Source: Thermoplasmatota archaeon (lineage in GTDB: Archaea > Thermoplasmatota > Thermoplasmata > Thermoplasmatales > Thermoplasmataceae). Taken from it: a DNA stretch of 11,240 nt. Location: the NCBI GenBank assembly GCA_023489425.1, contig JAMDCG010000097.1, forward strand, positions 1-11,240, given 5' to 3'. The translations under genes and the position numbers were made by a program. Each line of letters opens with the position of its first letter. Within the stretch, counting starts at the first letter, position 1. A model generated the notes under the pieces. The model did no database searches, was not told the origin of the DNA, and was given only the letters and a program-made list of their open reading frames with translations. Below are positions 1 to 11,240 of this stretch, one piece after another.

Positions 1-245
1 ATTGAAGTAACTGAGCCTACCACCGTGGATATCCTGACAGAGCTTGAAAAGGGATAAAGCAGGTAGACAGACATGAAGGACAGAAAACCTATGAGGAAAC
101 CGTATATGGCTGCCCATTTCTTTTTTAAAATAGCCAGTGGAACTGCTGAAATTACCACATAAAATGCATCCTTCAGGAAAAATGCTAAAAGGATCGAAAG
201 AATTGCTGAAATTGCTATGGCCAATACAGAATATTTAAGGTTCAT
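1..245 (-). CDS. Membrane protein of unknown function (3' part missing at window edge)
   Basis: An open frame starts at the ATG on 245-243 and runs without a stop through position 1, giving 81 codons; the C-terminus lies outside the window. The product begins MNLKYSVLAIAIS and is almost entirely hydrophobic. Likely membrane segments are residues 5-24, 27-40 and 45-64, and the KKKW at 41-44 suggests a cytoplasmic loop between the second and third. I do not recognise the family. The start is well supported: a perfect archaeal Shine-Dalgarno (255-262) lies 9 bases upstream, inside the 3' end of the acylase gene. The ATG overlaps the acylase stop by 11 bases in another frame, so the two genes are probably co-transcribed and perhaps translationally coupled. 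A role with the acylase is only inferred from this arrangement. Confidence 0.72.
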   Translation of the reverse strand, partial: MNLKYSVLAIAISAILSILLAFFLKDAFYVVISAVPLAILKKKWAAIYGFLIGFLSFMSVYLLYPFSSSVRISTVVGSVTS

Positions 246-2736
246 ATGTTATTCTCACCTCCACTGGTAATCCCTGCATAGGGTAATATTGATGATTTAA
301 CCATTTTGGAAGCTGGTTATCGAACCAGTGGCTCAGGATATTTTCACTTGGACCCCCTGGAAATACACCATAGAAGGTTCCGGAACCTGGTCTTGCGATA
401 GTTCTCAGCGATGAACCTATGGAAACACATGGGAGTGGATATTCAAGCAGTCTTGGTATGCTACCTACACTAACTGTGTGTCTCCCACCCCAGATCGGCA
501 TGGGTCCTATTCCCAGAGAGCTGATTCCAGTAAGGCTTGCTATTTCCAGCTTATGTATGTTGCCCCAGTCCCAGTTATTTTCCCCACCGAGCTTTGAATC
601 CATGAAAGCGATCGCCATTACGAACGCTTTCTGCATAGTAAGGGTAAAGTTTCCGTTGAACCATGATGATGTGGGGTCATTTCTCGCCATGAATATAGCT
701 GTGTTAATATAGACACATGGTGTGTAATTGTAAATACCTTTTTCCTTCAGGACCTTATCATAGGTGATATTGTAGAATGCAGCAGTTACATACTGGTAGA
801 CTGTTGGATTTTTCATTGGCTCATAAAAAGAATAATTCCAGCTCAAAAGTAAACTGTAAGCTTCTTCCTCTGAACTATTCATTGATTTCATTCCAGAAAT
901 TGCTTTTAGAATGATTGGATTAAACTGTGATGCCCAGTAATCTGTCACATTAGACTGAAGAGCCATCATGTTGGAAATATCCATTTTGGAATGATTTTGA
1001 AGATAATGATCTATTGTTTCAGCCCTTCCTCCTGTAGACCAGTATGAACCAATGAAAGGAAATGGATAATTCTTACCTACAGTGGGCTGATTTGGGGCAA
1101 ACATGTATCCCCTGGAAGGGTTAACAGCCTGCGGAAGATAATTAAAAGGAACATATCCATTTTCTCTATACTGAGGGTTTGAACCATTTAGAAGAGATAC
1201 TGAACCTACAACTTTCAACGTTTTACCGTCAGGTAGGGTCTCCCTTATAAGAGGATATCCCCCAGCTGTAATATACCCTGCATGATGCAGTGAAACAAGA
1301 GCAAAATTCTGAGGTGGTGCTGGCCCCCAGTACTTCAGTGCATTCAACATCTGGGAGTAATTTGAAGCCTGATCCAGTAGAATCTCCGCTATAAGATCAG
1401 TGCTTGGTGAACTTGCATCCCAGTTCATGCTTATTCCTATGTTGCCTGTTCGTCCTATGAGTGGCCCATTATTTGTCATATATATTTTATAATCAATTCC
1501 AGCCTGTGTGTAACTGCAGCTCTTCATGGGTATATAGGTTCCATTGTAAAGATATGAGTCTCCCTTAAGGAATTCCACATAATCATTGGCTGAATTTCCC
1601 TCTGGTGTCGTTAGTCCAAATGAAGTATTTTTTGTGTGCCCTATTAGTATACCAGGTAATCCTGCAAGTCCCCAACCTGTTATATTAAATCCAGGGTCCT
1701 TTAGCTGGAACTCTATCCATAGTGAAGGAGCAAGAAGTGGAAGATGTGGATCGTTGGCCATCATAGGATCGCTATCTGATGAATGCGAGGATGTGATCAC
1801 CCAGCTGTTACTTCCTATTGGTGAACCCGTAAGATGTGAGCCTGGTAGATTATATGGATCGGAAATATTATCGCAGGAATCTTTGATTAGCTTTGAAAGA
1901 TTACTTAAAAGGTTGGTTGATATTCCTGTTGCCCATTCCTGGAAAAAATCCTGTTTCCACAAATAAGAAGGACTGATACCCTGTTCAGATAGACTAAAAC
2001 CATTTACCGTTCCACTTCCTGGAATCATTGTTATGTTTTCCGTATAGTATGGATAATATGGCCATATTTCACTGTAATTTGCAAATCCCAAAGAATTAAC
2101 AAAGAGATCAGACTGCAGAACATTGGTAGATCCTGTCGCAAGAGACCATGACATATACTCCTGCCAGACAAGGCTGTCGAAGACTGTCCACCTGAATGGC
2201 TTTATCCCCAGGAGATGAAATCCAAGATGAGTAGAAACTGAGTTAGTGTTATTTATGTACGCATCAACACCCTCAGTATACCATTTGATATAATTGAAAT
2301 AGCCCGTATAGTTTGCCTTTAGGTCTCTCTCAAGATTGTACGCATCTCTTGAGAGCCCTATAAGTCTCATTGTGTAATCGGACTGTAATCCAGATTTACC
2401 CACAAAATTGCTGAGATTACCTGCTGCCACAGTTGCCTGAAGTTCCATCTGAAACAATCTCTGACACGCTGAGTAATATCCCTGTGCATAGAATAGATCA
2501 TGATTATTTTTGGCTGTTATATGTGCCATTCCTGAAGTATCAACGGTAATGTTAACCTCATTTTCCAGTCCTGGTACAATAAAATTACCCGATGTGAAGT
2601 TCGTTCCATCTGCACTTCTGAATACCCCGGTGGATGGATTGAGAATATTCAGGGAATTAGAAACATATGACATTGATCCTACAATTATAAATGATAACAC
2701 AACAATTATGACAAGTAGTTTTTTACCCATATTCAT
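235..2736 (-). CDS. Penicillin acylase family Ntn hydrolase, membrane-anchored, extracytoplasmic
   Basis: At 833 residues this has the usual length of a penicillin amidase (PF01804) precursor. Residues 6-24 form an N-terminal hydrophobic signal or anchor after GKK, so the enzyme should face outward. The alpha-chain hallmark is at 60-113 (DTSGMAHITAKNNHDLFYAQG, then QRLFQMEL). The autoprocessing junction is G308/S309 in GSNSWVITSS, followed by ANDPHLPL; S309 (codon at 1810-1812) is the expected N-terminal nucleophile of the beta chain. N477 in PPQNFALV is the likely oxyanion-hole Asn. The C-terminal PGGPSENILSHWFDNQLPKW is also typical. Family members hydrolyse amide bonds of acylated compounds such as beta-lactams or acyl-homoserine lactones; the substrate here cannot be read from sequence. 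About twenty N-x-S/T sequons suggest glycosylation. There is no Shine-Dalgarno; ATG 2736 is taken, but ATG 2730 (Met3) fits leaderless initiation better. It follows the importer genes after a 77-base gap. Confidence 0.93.
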   Translation of the reverse strand: MNMGKKLLVIIVVLSFIIVGSMSYVSNSLNILNPSTGVFRSADGTNFTSGNFIVPGLENEVNITVDTSGMAHITAKNNHDLFYAQGYYSACQRLFQMELQATVAAGNLSNFVGKSGLQSDYTMRLIGLSRDAYNLERDLKANYTGYFNYIKWYTEGVDAYINNTNSVSTHLGFHLLGIKPFRWTVFDSLVWQEYMSWSLATGSTNVLQSDLFVNSLGFANYSEIWPYYPYYTENITMIPGSGTVNGFSLSEQGISPSYLWKQDFFQEWATGISTNLLSNLSKLIKDSCDNISDPYNLPGSHLTGSPIGSNSWVITSSHSSDSDPMMANDPHLPLLAPSLWIEFQLKDPGFNITGWGLAGLPGILIGHTKNTSFGLTTPEGNSANDYVEFLKGDSYLYNGTYIPMKSCSYTQAGIDYKIYMTNNGPLIGRTGNIGISMNWDASSPSTDLIAEILLDQASNYSQMLNALKYWGPAPPQNFALVSLHHAGYITAGGYPLIRETLPDGKTLKVVGSVSLLNGSNPQYRENGYVPFNYLPQAVNPSRGYMFAPNQPTVGKNYPFPFIGSYWSTGGRAETIDHYLQNHSKMDISNMMALQSNVTDYWASQFNPIILKAISGMKSMNSSEEEAYSLLLSWNYSFYEPMKNPTVYQYVTAAFYNITYDKVLKEKGIYNYTPCVYINTAIFMARNDPTSSWFNGNFTLTMQKAFVMAIAFMDSKLGGENNWDWGNIHKLEIASLTGISSLGIGPMPIWGGRHTVSVGSIPRLLEYPLPCVSIGSSLRTIARPGSGTFYGVFPGGPSENILSHWFDNQLPKWLNHQYYPMQGLPVEVRITYEP
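255..262 (-). promoter_or_regulatory. Perfect Shine-Dalgarno for the left-edge membrane protein gene
   Basis: The minus strand reads GGAGGTGA, fully complementary to the conserved archaeal 16S rRNA 3' tail, with 9 bases to the ATG at 245. It lies within the last codons of the acylase gene. This fixes the start of the otherwise unrecognised small frame and supports it as a real gene. Confidence 0.8.
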
Positions 2737-2813: not shown

Positions 2814-3200
2814 TTAAAAAAAAGCAATAACGTAAAATAATGCTACGCCAAGCAATATATATAATCCACCAACACCGACAAATATCACTGTCATTATTAG
2901 CTGCTCTCTGTTAATCTGCACTACGTCTTTTTCTCTCAATGAAGCTTTTGACTGAAACATATTATTAACATATCTATTTGCACCAAAATCATAAAATGCA
3001 CCAAAGAAAATAATTACAAATCCCACCATTACGAGGATAAGTGGAAATACGTTGGCTATGGATAAAGCACCAGCAATAAGAAGCACAATCCCGGATAGAA
3101 ATAGAATAAAAAGAAGAACCATTGGAGGAACAGTTAGTTTAAACCTTGTTCGTATCTTCTCTTTCCTTCTAATCTCCTCCTCTGGTGATGGGATCTCCAT
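2814..3200 (-). CDS. Small three-helix membrane protein at the end of the peptide-importer operon
   Basis: This 128-residue protein is of unknown family. Residues 1-24 are highly charged (EEEIRRKEKIRTRFK) and probably cytoplasmic. Hydrophobic segments lie at about 25-47, 52-71 and 100-126, with a polar loop at 72-99 (RYVNNMFQSKASLREKD). The positive charges suggest that the N-terminus is inside. The ATG at 3200 is 3 bases beyond the stop of the fused ATPase gene, whose tail carries GGAG 6 bases from this start; tandem TAG TAA stops separate the two frames. This tight junction supports co-expression with the transporter. It has no ABC, permease or binding-protein motif, so it could be an accessory or stabilising subunit of the importer, or an unrelated passenger. 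No function should be assigned. Confidence 0.8.
   Translation of the reverse strand: MEIPSPEEEIRRKEKIRTRFKLTVPPMVLLFILFLSGIVLLIAGALSIANVFPLILVMVGFVIIFFGAFYDFGANRYVNNMFQSKASLREKDVVQINREQLIMTVIFVGVGGLYILLGVALFYVIAFF
2816..2823 (-). terminator. T8 tract, candidate end of the importer transcript
   Basis: The minus strand has eight consecutive T that encode the last two Phe codons and the first base of the TAA stop of the small membrane protein; AT-rich DNA follows. Archaeal polymerase can terminate at such U-rich runs without a hairpin, and no convincing hairpin is seen. A separate candidate promoter just downstream fits a transcript boundary here, but the tract may simply be Phe codons. Confidence 0.35.
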
Positions 3201-3203
3201 TTA

Positions 3204-5711
3204 CTACTCCGTCATGTATTCTCCTTCCTCTCCACTCTCTACTTCTTCCATTACTTCCTCTCTTGTCAGTTCATCCTGTGCAAAATGGCAGCTATAATAT
3301 CTGTATCCAGTTTGTTGCAGTGGTGGGTCTTCTGCTTTGCATATATCCTTATGGTATACACATCTTCCGTAGAACCTGCATCCCTTCGGTGGATTAATCG
3401 CACTTCCAATTTCTCCCACTATGTCAAGTCCCTTATTCACCCAATCTGGATTCAGACTTGGCACTGCTGAAATTAGTGCTTTGGTATATGGGTGAAGCGG
3501 ATCTCTGATAGTCTCTTCGGATTTTCCAAATTCCACAATTTGTCCAAGATACATGACAACTATGAAATCAGAAACGTATCTGGCAGATGCTATATCGTGA
3601 GAGATGTAAAGCACAGATATATCCCTCTTATCCTTCAAATCCAGCAAAAGATTCATTATGTTTGCTCTGATGGAAACATCAAGCATTGAAATAGGTTCAT
3701 CAGCTACGAGGAACGATGGATTAAGCGTTATTGATCGGGCGATAGAAACTCTCTGCCTCTCTCCACCTGAAAGTTCATGAGGATATCTCTCCACGTAATT
3801 CTCTGGTGGTCGTAGGTTAGCGATATCTAGAGCACTGAGAACCTCTTTTTCAAGATTGAACTCATTTTCAGTCTTATCATTTCCGCCATTTACATCCTGC
3901 TGTCTTCTTTTAATTAAATCTTTTTTCTGAATTACAAGAGGTTCAGCTACTATATCAAAGATTGACATCTTAGGATTTATGGAGTCGTACGGATCCTGAA
4001 AAATCAACTGGCTTTCCTTCCTATAAATGTTGTACCTCTGACTTTTCTTGCTCATCAAAGCTATATCATTTCTTCTTTCCATTTCCTTCTTTAATTCTTC
4101 CTGAGTCTGCTGATCTTGAGGATCTACATTCATTTGCATTTCGTCATTATCAAGCTGTGAGCCACTGGAAACCTGATCGAACTTAAATATGAGCTTACCA
4201 CTAGTAGGTTCAATTGCATTTACTAAAAGCTTACCAAGAGTCGTCTTTCCAGATCCACTTTCACCAACAACTCCAATAATTACTCTTTTCCGTATAAGTA
4301 TATTTACCATGTCAACAGCGTGTACCACTGGTTTGTTTGCACCACCAAACAGATTCGTGGTTAGGTTTGAATGAACAGAAAAATATTTACTCAGGTCCTT
4401 TGCCTCGAGTAGTACAGGCTGGTTACCAGCATTAGGATCGGGTAGCAATTCATCAGTGTATCTCTGTGCACTCAAGTACCTTTCTTCATCTATCTGATCA
4501 AAATGACATAAGGATTTGTGATCCTGACTTAGGCTTTTAAGAGTAGGTTTTTCATTGTGACAAATGTCCTCCGCCATGAAACATCTGCTTGCGAAATAAC
4601 ATCCTTTTGGAGGATCTATTAGGTCAGGAACAGAACCAGGAATACCGTGAATTCTTTGTTTCGTTGTATCAATTGATGGATAACTGTGCATTAGTGCGTA
4701 TGTGTACGGATTTCTAGGGTTAACGAAAATATCTCTTGGTTCACCATATTCCATAACCCTCCCTGCATACATAACAGCAACATAATTGGCCAGTTGTGAA
4801 ACAACACCAACATCGTGTGAAATGACTATCATAGACTTAATTATTTTACTGTCTTTCAGTCCTTTTAGTTCTTTAATTATTTTTGCCTGTGTAATAACAT
4901 CCAGACCAGTTGTTGGTTCATCAGCAATTACTACCTTTGGATTAAGAGCAAGTGCCATTGCGATAATTCCCCTCTGCTTCATCCCACCACTCAACTCGTG
5001 TGGATAAGCATCAAGGAACTTTGGGTTGAAACCAGCCTTCCTACAACTGCTCTCCATCCTGTTATTCTCAAGAAGTCTTTTCTTGTCCTTTAAAGGCATG
5101 GTTTTAAGATCATTTTTCAGTTTTTCTACCATCTCTTCATAAATTTTATTTTCTATGATTTTAAATTCGGCACTTTCCTTATCTTTTATATCTTGTAAAG
5201 CCATTTCGTTAGCTCTTGCTCTGAGATTTCCTTCGTCTATGAAGTCTTCATCGGTCAAATTGGAAATATCTGAAAATGTGTTGTGGATTTCGAATACCTC
5301 CTTGATCTGGTTCCTTATGGTATGAACTGGATTAAAGGCATTCATAGCCCCCTGGAATATCATTGATATTTCTTTCCATCTTATTTCCGCAAGACGCTGA
5401 TCCAGCATTCTTCTAGCTTTTATCCTCATCTTTTTATCTGATACCGTGTCGTTGGAATTTATGATATCCTTATCTAGATAGACCACTGAACCTGTGATTT
5501 CAGCGTTATCTGGTAGCAGACCAAGAAGAGATAGCGCTGTAGTAGATTTGCCAGAACCACTTTCCCCTATTATTCCGAGAATTTCTCCCTCATTGAGATC
5601 CAAGTTGATTCCATCAAGGGCCTGTACTCTTCCTTCAAACGTTCGGAAATGAACTGACAAATTGTCTATCTTTATAAGTGTTTTAGAATTCGTAATTTCT
5701 TCTTCTAACAT
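3204..5711 (-). CDS. Fused double ATPase of an oligopeptide/dipeptide ABC importer (DppD-DppF-like)
   Basis: The 835-residue product holds two complete ABC ATPases, which would drive peptide uptake from the cytoplasmic face. First domain: Walker A GESGSGKST (49-57), Q-loop Q120, signature LSGGMKQ (240-246), Walker B VVIADEP (260-266), H-loop H299. Second domain: Walker A 483-490, Q572 in FQDP, signature LSGGERQ (647-653), Walker B FLVADEP (667-673), H705. Each is followed by an oligo_HPY-type tail with four Cys: 371/377/384/402 and 778/784/791/808, comparable to the Cys set reported to bind a 4Fe-4S cluster in some DppD proteins. Order and motifs indicate a DppD-like half, a linker around 405-435, then a DppF-like half. 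Fused peptide-importer ATPases such as GsiA and YejF are known. Unusual features are charged insertions at about 141-222 and 512-562, and FQG instead of FQDP in the first Q-loop. The start is 1 base past the permease stop, with GGAGGAGGT upstream. Confidence 0.95.
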   Translation of the reverse strand: MLEEEITNSKTLIKIDNLSVHFRTFEGRVQALDGINLDLNEGEILGIIGESGSGKSTTALSLLGLLPDNAEITGSVVYLDKDIINSNDTVSDKKMRIKARRMLDQRLAEIRWKEISMIFQGAMNAFNPVHTIRNQIKEVFEIHNTFSDISNLTDEDFIDEGNLRARANEMALQDIKDKESAEFKIIENKIYEEMVEKLKNDLKTMPLKDKKRLLENNRMESSCRKAGFNPKFLDAYPHELSGGMKQRGIIAMALALNPKVVIADEPTTGLDVITQAKIIKELKGLKDSKIIKSMIVISHDVGVVSQLANYVAVMYAGRVMEYGEPRDIFVNPRNPYTYALMHSYPSIDTTKQRIHGIPGSVPDLIDPPKGCYFASRCFMAEDICHNEKPTLKSLSQDHKSLCHFDQIDEERYLSAQRYTDELLPDPNAGNQPVLLEAKDLSKYFSVHSNLTTNLFGGANKPVVHAVDMVNILIRKRVIIGVVGESGSGKTTLGKLLVNAIEPTSGKLIFKFDQVSSGSQLDNDEMQMNVDPQDQQTQEELKKEMERRNDIALMSKKSQRYNIYRKESQLIFQDPYDSINPKMSIFDIVAEPLVIQKKDLIKRRQQDVNGGNDKTENEFNLEKEVLSALDIANLRPPENYVERYPHELSGGERQRVSIARSITLNPSFLVADEPISMLDVSIRANIMNLLLDLKDKRDISVLYISHDIASARYVSDFIVVMYLGQIVEFGKSEETIRDPLHPYTKALISAVPSLNPDWVNKGLDIVGEIGSAINPPKGCRFYGRCVYHKDICKAEDPPLQQTGYRYYSCHFAQDELTREEVMEEVESGEEGEYMTE

Positions 5712-5712
5712 T

Positions 5713-7977
5713 TTACCTCCTCCTTAGTCTTGGATTTACTACCTCGTCCATTCCCCTTGATACAAATATGAGTGAGAATATGAACATCGTGAGTGCTATG
5801 GCCGGTGGCAATATCCACTGTGGTTGTGTTATAACCACAAAGTAGTCCGTATATGCTGCATTTAGCATTCCTCCCCATGTTGCAGTAGTTAATGGAGCAA
5901 GACCCAGAAACTCAAGACCAGATACTGCACCAATTCCTCCTCCTATGGACAATGCAAGTAGATAGAGCAATAACGGTCCTATATTTGGCATTATATGTCT
6001 CCTCATGATGGAGCCTCCCTTTGAACCGAAGAGTTTTGATGCCTCCACGAATGACCTTGCTGAAACCCCTCTTACCACACCTATGAGTGTGAATGCCGCA
6101 AATGGCCAACCTGTAAGACTGACTATAAGAATTAATGTGATAAAGTTTGCACTGTTGATAACCGAAGATAAGGCAATTAGCAAGGCAAGGCTAGGTACTA
6201 GAAACAGAGCAAGTGATAATGTTTCAACGGCCTCTCCTCCGAAACCTCCTTTATATCCAACATACATAGCGACAGCTAGAGATATTATTATGGTAAAGAA
6301 ACCAATTGAAATTCCGAAAATCCAATCGTTTCCGAAACTTTCCATGAATCTGGCCCACACATCATTACCGTACTGTGTGCTCCCGAGTATTAGATTTGAT
6401 CCGGAAGGTAATTTTGCCATTGGAGGTATCGGTGTGCATTCCTTAGCGGTTGAACTATACAGGTAGATATAATCATTACTAGCAGTAACTGCGATTGCCC
6501 CAACTCCAGTTGTTGCATCCTTGAAATACTGAACTACTGAGGTGCTGGTAGGTACTGGAGATAAACCGGCACTCCATGAGAATGGATACTTTGTTCCGAA
6601 GTTTAAATTGAATGACAGGATAGATCCTTTACTAGAGACGAGTATAAGGGAATCAGCGACGCTATCGTAGGTTGCTGTTTTTGAGAATATACCAGAATTT
6701 ACAGGTAAAGCTACAACCTTGGTTTTAACAGATCCCGTGCTGTTATAGGTCAATACATAAGCATTTAGACTTGAAGTTGCAATGATATCACTGGGCAAGC
6801 CTGAATGTCCAGGTGTTGTAGATAAACCTACAAGATCTACACCAGTGTTCCTTACTGTTTGATTCAAACCAGTGAGAAGATTTATACTATCTACAGAACT
6901 TCCGACGAGGTAATATGCAGAGTTGTTTGCTGCATAACTCACCTGATAGAATTTTGGAATTACAGGCCCAACTCTTGCATTGTATGTATTTCCAACTACT
7001 TTACTCCATACTAAACCTCCATTTGATGCAGAATAAGCATTTATGGAAGTATTGTTCCAAATTAGTATTAGGGCATTTTTATCAAATCTACTTGCGGAAA
7101 ATGATGACCCGTAAAAGCTTATTCCTTCGGGGTTTTTCATGCTTAATTTTTCTATTCCCAAAATTGCTCCCGGTGAAATCTGATACCTGTAAAGATAATC
7201 CCCAGTTGCATTTTTAGATAACAAGTACACCTGACCACTGGGGTTAAAACTGTCGTTGGCATAATTACAAGATGGGATACTTGTAGATACTGTACCAGTA
7301 AATGCTATCGAATCAGATGTTATATTTCCAACAATTGTTCCGTTATACGTAAATGAAGTCATCTCAGTGAAACTTGGCTTGTTTAGTCCCGCAGTTTGAA
7401 ATGCTATTGTTCCTATAACCACATTTCCATTTGACCCATTGGCAATTGGAAGCGCGACAAACCTCTGGAATAACCCGGGACCTGCATATCCAGTAATTTC
7501 CTCAGCGCAATTTATGAGCGAGAACATAGTTGGTTGGAGCATTTTTTCCTTTCCCTTTAAATGACTGTTATAAATTAAGTTATAGTTTCCTAGTTTAGAG
7601 TCCTTTGTTGCCCCTAATCCATAGCAATAAATATCCCCATTTGAAGTCCCAAGGTAAATAGCTGAAGTTCCCTCATTCTGAAGAGTGGTTGACATGGGAG
7701 AATATAACTCCACTCCAGAGTTACCTTTAGATATGTTTGTGAGGTGAGTCTGCACTATTTCACTTGCAACGTGAGTATCGACTTCAGGTGCGATGTATGT
7801 ATAGTTAGGATGCTCAACTACAAATGGCGTTACCAAGGTTATTACAGCAAAAGCTAGTAATATATAGAATCCTACCTTACCGTAAGTACTTTTGTAGAAA
7901 ACCTTGAACTGCCTGTAAAGTCTTCTCCAGTATACAGAGGGTTCATATTTCCTCCTCTTTTCATCAGATTTTTCCAT
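5713..7977 (-). CDS. DppC-like peptide importer permease with a large extracytoplasmic beta-propeller-like insertion
   Basis: The 754-residue product is much longer than a usual DppC (about 280-320). Residues 1-33 are a basic cytoplasmic tail and 34-54 the first membrane helix, as in OppC_N-type permeases. Residues about 60-530 are an insertion facing outside, with seven or eight blade-like repeats that each pair a hydrophobic strand with a Ser/Gly/Asn turn and a second strand, for example TSAIYLGTSNGDIYCYG (104-120), NALILIWNNTSINAYSASNG (301-320), DSLILVSSKGSILSF (442-456) and GAIAVTASNDYIYLY (493-507). This resembles PQQ-like or WD40-like propellers. The core permease resumes exactly at the family landmark LGSTQYGNDVWARF (531-544, cf. 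LGTDxxGRDVxSR), with the EAA loop at 642-670 (SFVEASKLFG, then HIMPN) and the terminal NPRLRRR. It lies 23 bases after the DppB gene with AGGTGA 6 bases before the ATG. The permease call is firm; the propeller fold is inferred from repeat pattern. Confidence 0.93.
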   Translation of the reverse strand: MEKSDEKRRKYEPSVYWRRLYRQFKVFYKSTYGKVGFYILLAFAVITLVTPFVVEHPNYTYIAPEVDTHVASEIVQTHLTNISKGNSGVELYSPMSTTLQNEGTSAIYLGTSNGDIYCYGLGATKDSKLGNYNLIYNSHLKGKEKMLQPTMFSLINCAEEITGYAGPGLFQRFVALPIANGSNGNVVIGTIAFQTAGLNKPSFTEMTSFTYNGTIVGNITSDSIAFTGTVSTSIPSCNYANDSFNPSGQVYLLSKNATGDYLYRYQISPGAILGIEKLSMKNPEGISFYGSSFSASRFDKNALILIWNNTSINAYSASNGGLVWSKVVGNTYNARVGPVIPKFYQVSYAANNSAYYLVGSSVDSINLLTGLNQTVRNTGVDLVGLSTTPGHSGLPSDIIATSSLNAYVLTYNSTGSVKTKVVALPVNSGIFSKTATYDSVADSLILVSSKGSILSFNLNFGTKYPFSWSAGLSPVPTSTSVVQYFKDATTGVGAIAVTASNDYIYLYSSTAKECTPIPPMAKLPSGSNLILGSTQYGNDVWARFMESFGNDWIFGISIGFFTIIISLAVAMYVGYKGGFGGEAVETLSLALFLVPSLALLIALSSVINSANFITLILIVSLTGWPFAAFTLIGVVRGVSARSFVEASKLFGSKGGSIMRRHIMPNIGPLLLYLLALSIGGGIGAVSGLEFLGLAPLTTATWGGMLNAAYTDYFVVITQPQWILPPAIALTMFIFSLIFVSRGMDEVVNPRLRRR
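5715..5723 (-). promoter_or_regulatory. Shine-Dalgarno of the fused ATPase gene
   Basis: The minus strand reads GGAGGAGGT in the last codons and stop of the preceding permease gene. The upstream GGAGG is 7 bases from the ATG at 5711 and the overlapping second one is 4 bases away. With a single base between stop and start, reinitiation or translational coupling is likely. Confidence 0.75.
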
Positions 7978-8000: not shown

Positions 8001-8993
8001 TCATACTTTAATTCTTGGATCGAGCCATGCGTGTATATAGTCAATCAGCGAGTATGCTACTATGGTTAAAAGAGAGATGATGAAAGTGGAGGCTTCGCTG
8101 AGAGGGTAATCTTCATTCAAAACAGCATGATAAAGTAATGGACCCATGCCTGGCCAGTTAAAAATAATAGCAACGATTAAGGACCCACTAATTAAAAATG
8201 ATAGCTGTAAGGCCAACCTTGTTGTAACTGGTATAACAGCAATTCTAGCAGCATGTTTTCTTAATATGGATTTTTCAGGAACTCCTTTCGCCCTCGCAGT
8301 TGTTATATGATCTTCTCCCAGAGTAGAAACCATCGCTGCCCTCATTGTAATCATATGGCCCATTGATTCTATGATCAATAATGTACTAAATGGGAGAGCG
8401 ATATGATACAACAATATCGGAAAAGTGCTAAGCGATGGGTGTGTGATGTATGTAAGTGGAACACTTGATTTCAGAGGTAGTACGCTCGAATATACTGCTA
8501 GATAAAGAAACAATATGACCCCAAGAATGAAATATGGAATTGAATTTAATATCAAGCTAGTTGTCAACAACACTCCCTCTTTTTTCCCCCCTCTCATTTT
8601 TGATACTACTATTCCAAGAGGTATCCCTATTGCAAAAGATAGAAGAGCCGATGAAACTATGAGAACTAATGTGTAGGGCAGGGCATTTGCAATTTCGTTA
8701 TATACATATTGACCAGGGGAATTAAAATCCTTTCCCCAATGAAATGTAAACATTTGATAAAGATAAGTTTCGAAATCCACAAGTGAAAACTTGCCATCCT
8801 GTAAACCAAGAGTACTTAATATTGCTTCCTTCTGCTTTGTAGATAGAGGTGTCCCAGTCTTATTTGCTGATTTTAGAAGTAGTAAACCAGGGTTTCCTGG
8901 CATAAGTCTGAAGACTACAAATATTATAAGAGTCATTATAACTACAAGAGCGAATGCCTGTATGATTTTTCTAGTTAATAGATAAATATTCAT
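8001..8993 (-). CDS. DppB-like peptide ABC importer permease
   Basis: The 330-residue protein is of normal length for a DppB/OppB permease, the membrane subunit that forms the peptide channel with the DppC-like partner. Membrane segments lie at about 10-30, 104-132, 141-168, 190-212, 258-280 and 303-322. Family landmarks are FRLMPGNPG after the first helix (28-36), HWGKDF (85-90), and the EAA loop at 227-256 (EDHITTARAKGV, then KHAARIAVIPV), which docks on the ATPase. NWPGMGPLLYHAV with EDYP (279-297) and the closing LDPRIKV are also typical. The start ATG at 8993 is preceded by GGGGG with 6 bases spacing, which can pair with the 16S tail with one G-U wobble. It is the first gene after the binding protein and probably the first of the tightly packed permease-ATPase set. 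Nothing in it is truncated or odd. Confidence 0.96.
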   Translation of the reverse strand: MNIYLLTRKIIQAFALVVIMTLIIFVVFRLMPGNPGLLLLKSANKTGTPLSTKQKEAILSTLGLQDGKFSLVDFETYLYQMFTFHWGKDFNSPGQYVYNEIANALPYTLVLIVSSALLSFAIGIPLGIVVSKMRGGKKEGVLLTTSLILNSIPYFILGVILFLYLAVYSSVLPLKSSVPLTYITHPSLSTFPILLYHIALPFSTLLIIESMGHMITMRAAMVSTLGEDHITTARAKGVPEKSILRKHAARIAVIPVTTRLALQLSFLISGSLIVAIIFNWPGMGPLLYHAVLNEDYPLSEASTFIISLLTIVAYSLIDYIHAWLDPRIKV

Positions 8994-9051: not shown

Positions 9052-11240
9052 TTAAGATTTTATCTTTGGTTTTCTCATTACCACAAAAGCGGCCCCAGCT
9101 ACCACACCAACAGCAACCACTACACCAGCTACGATGTAGTCTGTTGTGTAATTCGCTGTAGTTACTGCAGTTACCGGTTTATTTGGCATGAGTGTTAGTT
9201 CTACTGTTGCGTTACCAGATCCAACCGTGGTCGATCCTGGAATTTCGGCTATACCAGTTATATTTACGTCCTCTGAACTAACGTGAACCACCGCTCCAGT
9301 GCTATTTGTGGTAACAAGGAGAGTATTCAAATCCTTCACTTCATATTCGAATTGTGCCACACCATTAGAATTTGTAGTTAGATTTGTTGAAGTTATGTTG
9401 AATATACCCCCGTATGTTGCCGCTATTCCAACCAGCACTGTTGCCCCTGAAACAGGCGTTGTTCCATTTGTCACAGTAAATGAGATTGTGGATGTTTCAT
9501 TATCGTATTGAGTTGTCCCAGAGCTTACGGTTGCCTTTACTGTAAGATGGTAGGGGTATTTGACTGTAGATGTTTTTGTGTGCTCTAATGAGAAGAACTG
9601 CCAATACCAATATAGATACACTGCATCGGGATTGGTATGAGAGTAGTTGGTGAAACCGTTTGTTTGTTCTGGTATAAGATCAACGAAGTATCCAAAGTTA
9701 ACCATTGTTGCCTGTTGTATCATCAAACTCTGAAGTTGTTTAACTTCCTTTGTTGTGCTTGAAAGTGAGTTTGAGTTGACTATTTTTGCTGTTATGTTGT
9801 TGAACAGATCCTGAACTTGCGTACCATTTAGTGTCTTTCCGTTAAATACCATACTTGAAAATGGACCTACATAACTGTCAGTTGGTATGCCATATTTTGG
9901 ATTAAGCGAATCACGACAATCAAGAGCTGGATCTCCTATCGGAGTGCTTATTCCTAGATCACCTATTTGGTATAGGTTACTGTTGGATGATATTGTTCCG
10001 TCAATGTTTGATATGAGTGTTGTAAAAGCTTCTTCCTTTAAGTTTACTGTTATACCAAGTTCGTTCCAGTATTTTTCTGTGGCATCAATGCCTTCTATGT
10101 TATCAGGTGCAACAGAACCAACAGTGGTCTGTATTGTCAATTTTACTGGTTTCCCATAATATTCTAGAGTTCCTGATACATTAACCATTCCAGGTATGCT
10201 TTTTATGAGACTTTTTGCCTTTGCCATATTTAGAGTGTATTCTGGTGCCGATGAATTGTAGTATAAAGTATTCTCTGGATTCACTGGATCGGATGATAGA
10301 ATTGCATAACCATCGCTAATTGCGCTTGCTATGTATGCAGTTGGTGTTGCATAGTTGAGTGCTTGTCTGAATGCGGTTACGTTCATAGGTGCTACTCTTG
10401 TGTTTAACCTTAGGTAACCATATGCACTTGATGTTTTATGATATATATACGAGCCAGGTGTGGACTGAATCTGTGGCAGGAAGTTTGGAGTTGGAGCCAA
10501 GGAAGTTGTGTCAATTTGACCTTTTTGATATGCAGCTATCATTGAGGACTCTGAGCTATAGAATGGTTCATCTATTTCGTATATCTTAGGAGTGTACTGT
10601 CTGAGTCCACTTGTCTTGTTTGCATACTGTACAAAGTAGTGTGGGTTTACATACATAGTTTCAACGTGACTTGGTATTATAGCCCCCTGCGGCATACCGT
10701 AACTGTTCTGTACCATGAATGGGCCAGTTCCTACTGATCCTGGCGATCTTCCAGTTGCCGTATTCCATCCCATGTTCCAGTCATACCATCCATTTCCTGA
10801 GGATATTCCTGGTGTGTAGTTATAAAGACCGTCAACAGATGTGAAGTCGTGTTTTATCCATATGTGATATGGTAGTACATTATTCTCAAAGTCAGCTGAG
10901 AATAACAGTAGAGTTGGCTTTGAAACATACACTTTAACACTTAGATTTCCATCTGGTACAACACTTACAACATTTGGCCAGTCACCACAGGATTGTTGCA
11001 TTCTAAAGGATTGAACTACGTCACCTGACTGCAGATAGTATTTCTTCATTGTTGTATTTTTATAGGATTTAAAAACGTGTGTTGTCATGTTTCCATTAAA
11101 GTAGTAATGAAGCACGTTTGAGAAGGTGTATGTTTGTGAGGCATTTGCTGGAGTCCAGTCAGTCCACTGAACATATGGTCTTAGGTGTATTGTATATACA
11201 TATGAGTAATTTTCAGTTTTGTTTGTCAATAAATCGTAAG
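9052..11240 (-). CDS. Peptide-type extracellular solute-binding protein (SBP family 5), C-terminally anchored; N-terminus missing
   Basis: The frame is open through the right edge, so signal peptide and true start lie outside; a TTG at 11229 is internal, preceded in frame by Tyr-Asp-Leu. Counting from that TTG as residue 1, residues 1-550 match a family 5 peptide-binding protein: TIHLRPYVQWTDW near the start, VGTGPFMV (166-173), and AFRQALNYATP (286-296). This subunit captures peptides and hands them to the permeases. Residues about 560-660 look like an Ig-like (Big_1-type) domain, with TVTNGTTPVSGATVLVGIA and TTNSNGVAQFEYE. Residues 697-717 are one hydrophobic helix followed by RKPKIKS, so the protein is anchored by its C-terminus with the binding domain outside, as in several archaeal binding proteins without lipobox. 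Many N-x-S/T sequons are present. It precedes the permease genes but is separated by a T9 tract. The substrate class is inferred from family and partners. Confidence 0.93.
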   Translation of the reverse strand, partial: YDLLTNKTENYSYVYTIHLRPYVQWTDWTPANASQTYTFSNVLHYYFNGNMTTHVFKSYKNTTMKKYYLQSGDVVQSFRMQQSCGDWPNVVSVVPDGNLSVKVYVSKPTLLLFSADFENNVLPYHIWIKHDFTSVDGLYNYTPGISSGNGWYDWNMGWNTATGRSPGSVGTGPFMVQNSYGMPQGAIIPSHVETMYVNPHYFVQYANKTSGLRQYTPKIYEIDEPFYSSESSMIAAYQKGQIDTTSLAPTPNFLPQIQSTPGSYIYHKTSSAYGYLRLNTRVAPMNVTAFRQALNYATPTAYIASAISDGYAILSSDPVNPENTLYYNSSAPEYTLNMAKAKSLIKSIPGMVNVSGTLEYYGKPVKLTIQTTVGSVAPDNIEGIDATEKYWNELGITVNLKEEAFTTLISNIDGTISSNSNLYQIGDLGISTPIGDPALDCRDSLNPKYGIPTDSYVGPFSSMVFNGKTLNGTQVQDLFNNITAKIVNSNSLSSTTKEVKQLQSLMIQQATMVNFGYFVDLIPEQTNGFTNYSHTNPDAVYLYWYWQFFSLEHTKTSTVKYPYHLTVKATVSSGTTQYDNETSTISFTVTNGTTPVSGATVLVGIAATYGGIFNITSTNLTTNSNGVAQFEYEVKDLNTLLVTTNSTGAVVHVSSEDVNITGIAEIPGSTTVGSGNATVELTLMPNKPVTAVTTANYTTDYIVAGVVVAVGVVAGAAFVVMRKPKIKS

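Follow-up and report, generated by a model that had tools for sequence, protein, structure and literature searches.

A DppC-type importer permease of Thermoplasmatota with a predicted beta-propeller in its first extracytoplasmic loop

Behind its first membrane helix, an ordinary DppC permease has a loop of a few dozen residues. In the window analysed here, a stretch of 11,240 nucleotides from a Thermoplasmatota archaeon, a gene of this type encodes several hundred residues at that site, which raises the questions of whether they form a genuine domain and what such a domain might do. Its 754-residue product forms the DppC half of an ATP-driven importer of the Dpp/Opp group (type I ABC), for which peptide is the substrate expected from the family. 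The gene and its parts are laid out as follows (window positions).

5713..7977, minus strand: ORF of a DppC/OppC-type permease with an inserted predicted beta-propeller, 754 aa (BPD_transp_1 E=1.5e-17, OppC_N E=0.007)
7819..7887, minus strand: first membrane helix, residues about 31-53 (model helix H31-53; hydropathy peak at 36-54 in the near-identical L001 protein)
6442..7788, minus strand: predicted eight-bladed beta-propeller, residues about 64-512
6943..6969, minus strand: conserved inter-blade loop GPVIPKFYQ, residues 337-345 (fourth lowest-entropy window of the insert region, 38 sequences)
6790..6816, minus strand: conserved inter-blade loop TPGHSGLPS, residues 388-396 (second lowest-entropy window of the insert region)
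6406..6432, minus strand: conserved proline-rich linker from propeller to permease core, residues 516-524 (lowest-entropy window of the insert region)
5716..6402, minus strand: core of the permease, residues 526-754, including the EAA-type coupling region (Pfam, structural alignment)

Pfam recognises BPD_transp_1 at residues 567-753 (64.3 bits against a cut-off of 26.4) and OppC_N at residues 24-59, the latter at 16.7 bits and under its cut-off of 23.9; the first helix is present in the structural model. At E up to 0.1, BPD_transp_1 was matched in every member of two families of long DppC proteins (38/38 and 27/27) and OppC_N in 31 of the 38 members of the window's family. The first membrane helix is separated from the family landmark LGSTQYGND by 471 residues (55-525, window 6403-7815), practically the interval (6388-7800) and the length (about 470 residues) given in a preliminary description of this DNA. 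The landmark starts at about residue 531 in the window protein versus 34-162, mostly 64-145, in short DppC ORFs, and the loop between helix and landmark spans at most 83 residues in the 70 proteins labelled short in the tree described below. The insert is poor in charged residues, has 0 to 4 cysteines among 38 members and contains 12 sequons against 8.0 in shuffles, an excess that is not significant (p 0.07).

An AlphaFold2 model with a mean pLDDT of 83.7 places a beta-propeller at about residues 64-512 on an otherwise complete DppC fold, which aligns with 280/282 residues of 8z1w_B (E. coli DppBCDF). The preliminary description had already called the rest of the permease intact, with a good EAA loop. 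The modelled propeller aligns with the Cake8 propeller over 313/320 residues, and a second, distant DppC family, folded separately at lower confidence, gave the identical architecture (310/318 residues aligned to Tako8). Blade number eight is taken from the best structural matches of the model. VIA-align superpositions of propellers onto the model were tighter than the alignments of Foldseek itself, which were poorer (target TM-score mostly 0.5-0.66 and rmsd about 6-27 among the matches listed). Strands start at residues 106, 183, 249, 303, 353, 397, 443 and 493 of the model, and the eight repeat positions that the preliminary description had read from the sequence (104, 186, 248, 301, 352, 396, 442 and 492) all fall in a modelled strand or at most 2 residues away. 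Its suggestion of a radial propeller finds support in two separate structure predictions and in sequence matches of relatives. As a model-based prediction, the insert is well supported as a closed beta-propeller, most likely of eight blades, and it is predicted to lie outside the cell.

Propeller-family sequence matches occur in a minority of members and are mostly weak. The window insert itself matched nothing in Pfam (E up to 1) or NCBIfam (E up to 0.01), and Pfam gave no PQQ_2 match up to E=1 for either the whole window protein or the insert. Among relatives, PQQ_2 was matched at E up to 0.1 in 2/38 and 7/27 members of the two families. A 1106-residue DppC (L176:7656-10973) has a strong Kelch-type propeller match within the same first loop; either the propeller has diverged there or a different propeller was recruited, and Kelch proteins are common in these organisms (7/11 genomes surveyed). 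Self-alignment of the window insert revealed no standout internal repeat (best off-diagonal 13%), while the inserts of the two families aligned to each other by hhalign with a local probability of 85% over 141 columns and a global one of 93%, which is suggestive only. A sequence search against solved structures (5 sequences, E up to 0.1) returned DppC relatives for the permease core only. Two protein-database searches, each scoring about 8,000 candidates, yielded 9 and 12 relatives. No description of a beta-propeller within DppC or an importer permease was found in the open-licence PMC literature, an absence that carries little weight.

Is the long frame authentic? Among 61 related genomes, at least 32 carry an unbroken frame of 700 aa or more for a long DppC (707-825 aa in those 32), and the long frame is therefore not a frameshift artefact. 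The gene is almost unchanged in genome G001, which aligns to the window with 95.7% over 11.2 kb. Among 292 genomes of the phylum, with the best three candidates per genome scored, at least 24 have a frame of at least 700 aa together with a match reaching residue 457 or earlier. Seven further genomes of this set have frames above 700 aa, including DppB-DppC fusions in G064 and G324 and a loop that by eye is of another kind in G216. Long-loop DppC proteins also occur in other lineages of the phylum (for example L061, L062 and L064). The long loop is an accessory trait: only short forms were seen in some near-complete genomes of the family, near-complete G035 of genus g6 has only the short form while G150 of the same genus bears the long one, and genomes with the long form also hold DppC paralogues without the insert. 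Other enlargements of these permeases were seen as well. Two proteins (L179 and L180; 757 and 808 aa) are single-chain DppB-DppC fusions with two BPD_transp_1 domains, L156:1498-3258 encodes a DppC with an N-terminal extension in which PKD domain matches precede the first OppC helix, and L178:4908-7205 encodes a DppC whose loop of ~350 residues is rich in D-x-D-x-D-G repeats that by eye are closer to calcium-binding repeats than to a propeller.

The window insert shows 15 synonymous and 1 nonsynonymous differences from the copy of C. divulgatum S5, and by this substitution pattern it is under purifying selection. Over a longer distance, in the comparison with L002, in which synonymous sites are saturated, pN was 0.226 for the insert and 0.034 for the core. 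Mean column entropy was likewise 2.16 for the insert and 1.04 for the core, and the insert is the fastest-diverging part of the operon measured (mean p-distance 0.73, versus 0.44 for the core and 0.54 for the binding-protein core). The most conserved windows of the insert region include the two inter-blade loops and the proline-rich linker, and G, P or Y occupies 20 of its 25 most conserved positions.

We placed 124 permease cores in a tree (47 long, 70 short, 5 mid and 2 set aside), in which N-terminal extensions (L103, L156) and the DppB-DppC fusions (L179, L180) were not counted as true long loops and in which a long loop need not mean a propeller, folds having been predicted for a minority of the long rows and L157 and L178 looking different by eye. 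The tree has 6 changes between long and not long, and its long-loop proteins form the clade of the window plus another group, placed close to short proteins of bacteria and archaea. One long-loop DppC, from a record labelled Candidatus Eisenbacteria (L082), groups with Thermoplasmata L093 despite its bacterial label, through lateral transfer or misbinning. A single clade was not rejected when both long groups were held together (p-AU 0.44; 43 rows, including the split gene L019 and the contig-edge fragment L090), when L042-L045 were added (p 0.45; 47 rows), when the window family was joined to the 35-row second clade (p 0.50), or when only the second clade's 22 long rows were held together (p 0.52), in tests whose groups were named after the tree was viewed and which used a quick tree search with some long branches. 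Therefore, as far as these sequences go, one origin of the long-loop DppC is possible.

The gene lies among the partners expected of an importer, namely DppB, DppD/F ATPases and a family 5 binding protein:

8001..8993, minus strand: DppB-type partner permease, 330 aa, without expansion (BPD_transp_1 E=3.5e-32)
3204..5711, minus strand: fused DppD-DppF ATPase with two ABC domains, 835 aa (ABC_tran and oligo_HPY each matched twice)
9052..11229, minus strand: family 5 solute-binding protein, truncated N-terminally at the window edge, with a hydrophobic C-terminal segment (SBP_bac_5 E=3e-35; C-terminal hydropathy of the G001 copy L161)
2814..3200, minus strand: small hydrophobic membrane protein, 128 aa (also found next to the ATPase in other operons of the window's family)
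235..2736, minus strand: penicillin-amidase family enzyme (Pfam)

The order DppB, long DppC, fused ATPase and small protein recurs in the window's family, with the binding-protein gene lying upstream, downstream or in reverse orientation. DppB is 324-357 aa long in this family and has no large insert. The DppD-DppF fusion is also found in the other operons of the family; the two are separate genes in the second-family loci examined. The ATPase of the window's operon may, judging by gene number, be CSP5_0340, a PepT-family ATPase listed among the proteins of actively growing cells in a cold-shock proteome study (PMC7285479). The penicillin-amidase enzyme, sequon-rich with 21 against 10.5 in shuffles, was recognised only in G001 among 20 loci. 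In other lineages, the DppB that accompanies a long-loop DppC is itself expanded, to 467-645 aa (L168, L169, L171, L176 and L177). In the four compared, L168, L169, L176 and L177, the additional residues sit between first helix and core, and they had no Pfam match in the three tested (L169, L176 and L177).

The family 5 binding protein is 866 aa long in G001 (L161). Eleven of the 20 long-DppC loci examined have a complete binding protein of 866-1652 aa, that of L176 is cut by the contig end and 8 loci had none recognised; at loci of other DppC paralogues a binding protein was confirmed in 7/12, at 582-680 aa, with that of L203 lying downstream at a distance so that its pairing is assumed. The proteins contrasted here by length are not independent by phylogeny, and the long ones were found with a profile built from long ones. 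The long extensions include Ig-like Big_1 matches in 6 proteins, with L167 alone above the family cut-off; the extension of the binding protein had no match to propeller profiles, and that of L173 matched no solved structure better than E=0.31. A hydrophobic segment lies near the C-terminus in 10/11 long binding proteins (by hydropathy or by eye) and also in 5/7 of the short-system ones (tails by eye). It is therefore the stalk that differs, and tethering alone does not require a propeller.

How does this importer compare with known systems? The E. coli DppBCDF (8z1v-8z1x) and M. tuberculosis OppABCD (8j5q) and DppABCD (8wd9) importers share its permease fold, kinds of operon partner and coupling region, but the TM1-TM2 loop of their DppC/OppC subunits is only a few dozen residues long, where the window DppC adds a predicted propeller of about 450. 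Among eight-bladed propellers of the BamB/PQQ type, BamB is a free lipoprotein of the outer-membrane assembly machine, whereas the window propeller would be nested within a permease. In the maltose importer, also of type I, a loop of the permease MalF has likewise become a large extracytoplasmic domain, P2, the nearest known analogue of the predicted DppC propeller. P2 belongs to another subunit family and another loop and has a different, smaller fold; it reportedly interacts with MalE throughout the cycle (Daus et al. 2009). In E. coli, DppA caps DppB and DppC, and a periplasmic scoop of the partner subunit DppB, between TM1 and a short helix, contacts this binding protein (PMC12136057). The scoop comprises ~30 residues in two short helices and a loop with no beta domain, whereas the DppC propeller is predicted to be a large beta domain.

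We propose that the first extracytoplasmic loop of DppC has been enlarged into a complete predicted propeller, most likely eight-bladed, which, on the published DppBCDF topology, would emerge beside the channel entrance, pseudo-symmetric to the scoop region of DppB. It would there act as a docking or retention platform for the membrane-tethered, stalked binding protein, held over the pore during peptide hand-over, with the inter-blade loops 337-345 and 388-396 as candidate contact surface. We give even chances to the proposal that the extracytoplasmic propeller docks or clamps the binding protein. Given the permease core, co-divergence of the insert with the binding-protein core was nominal in 18 of the 19 operons tried (partial r 0.31, p 0.006; 0.28 and p 0.02 once B and DF were controlled as well). 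With near-duplicates removed and the distance and control terms changed, it was weak over 16 operons, at 0.24 (p 0.05) and 0.19 (p 0.12). In these 16 operons the insert did as well with DppB given core and DF (r 0.28, p 0.03), and the link of permease core to binding-protein core given B and DF is stronger (r 0.55). The fast divergence of the insert counts against a large conserved docking face.

That same divergence suits a variable surface, and a somewhat unlikely but serious alternative is that the propeller serves for interaction or as a scaffold at the cell surface, with little transport role, and anchors the importer in the dense exterior protein layer of the S-layer-less Thermoplasmatales or binds neighbouring surface enzymes. 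PMC12448462 describes, by cryo-tomography of C. divulgatum, a dense, unordered exterior protein layer of ~20 nm without an S-layer, and PMC10354927 describes secreted beta-propeller proteins in a Thermoplasmatales genome. A scaffold role sits less well with long-loop DppC in lineages whose envelopes may differ (L061, L062 and L064), and with the position of the insert in the window's operon family, in DppC, on the side where the binding protein docks, and not in DppB. It is unlikely that the propeller supplies the channel as an additional receptor or affinity filter, by binding peptide or some other ligand: peptide-binding propellers do exist, the Foldseek list including Groucho/TLE1 with EH1 and WRPW peptides, but the conserved positions of the insert are mostly G, P and Y and a family 5 binding protein is still present in the operon. 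A passive role, in which the domain shields the channel mouth from acid or stabilises it, would suit an acidophilic lineage, with isolates from sites of pH 1-1.5 (PMC5155288), and a charge-poor insert. We nevertheless consider it very improbable, since the same genomes run DppC paralogues without a propeller, G035 does with the short form alone in a genus shared with the bearer G150, and long-loop forms occur in lineages not generally known as acidophiles. Finally, a frame joining two genes by sequencing or assembly error, or a decaying insert, is hardly credible, for although the long DppC of G043 is split into adjacent ORFs of 451 and 278 aa (L047:3076-5362), by sequencing error or as a real split, the intact frames in at least 32/61 genomes, the signature of purifying selection and the confident predicted fold refute such an artefact.

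The propeller-bearing DppC is a variant of a known importer family, with a complete, conserved globular domain predicted where binding protein meets channel; docking of the binding protein is our preferred reading of its role. More tentatively, and with a probability well below even, a whole class of peptide importers throughout Thermoplasmatota may have an eight-bladed propeller in the DppC loop and be paired with giant stalked binding proteins, the two building a raised module at the cell surface, within the exterior protein layer, in place of the bacterial periplasmic hand-over. In a lineage reported to be without an S-layer, the coupling of tethered archaeal binding proteins to their channel becomes testable, as does the makeup of the ~20 nm exterior protein layer of Cuniculiplasma (PMC12448462).
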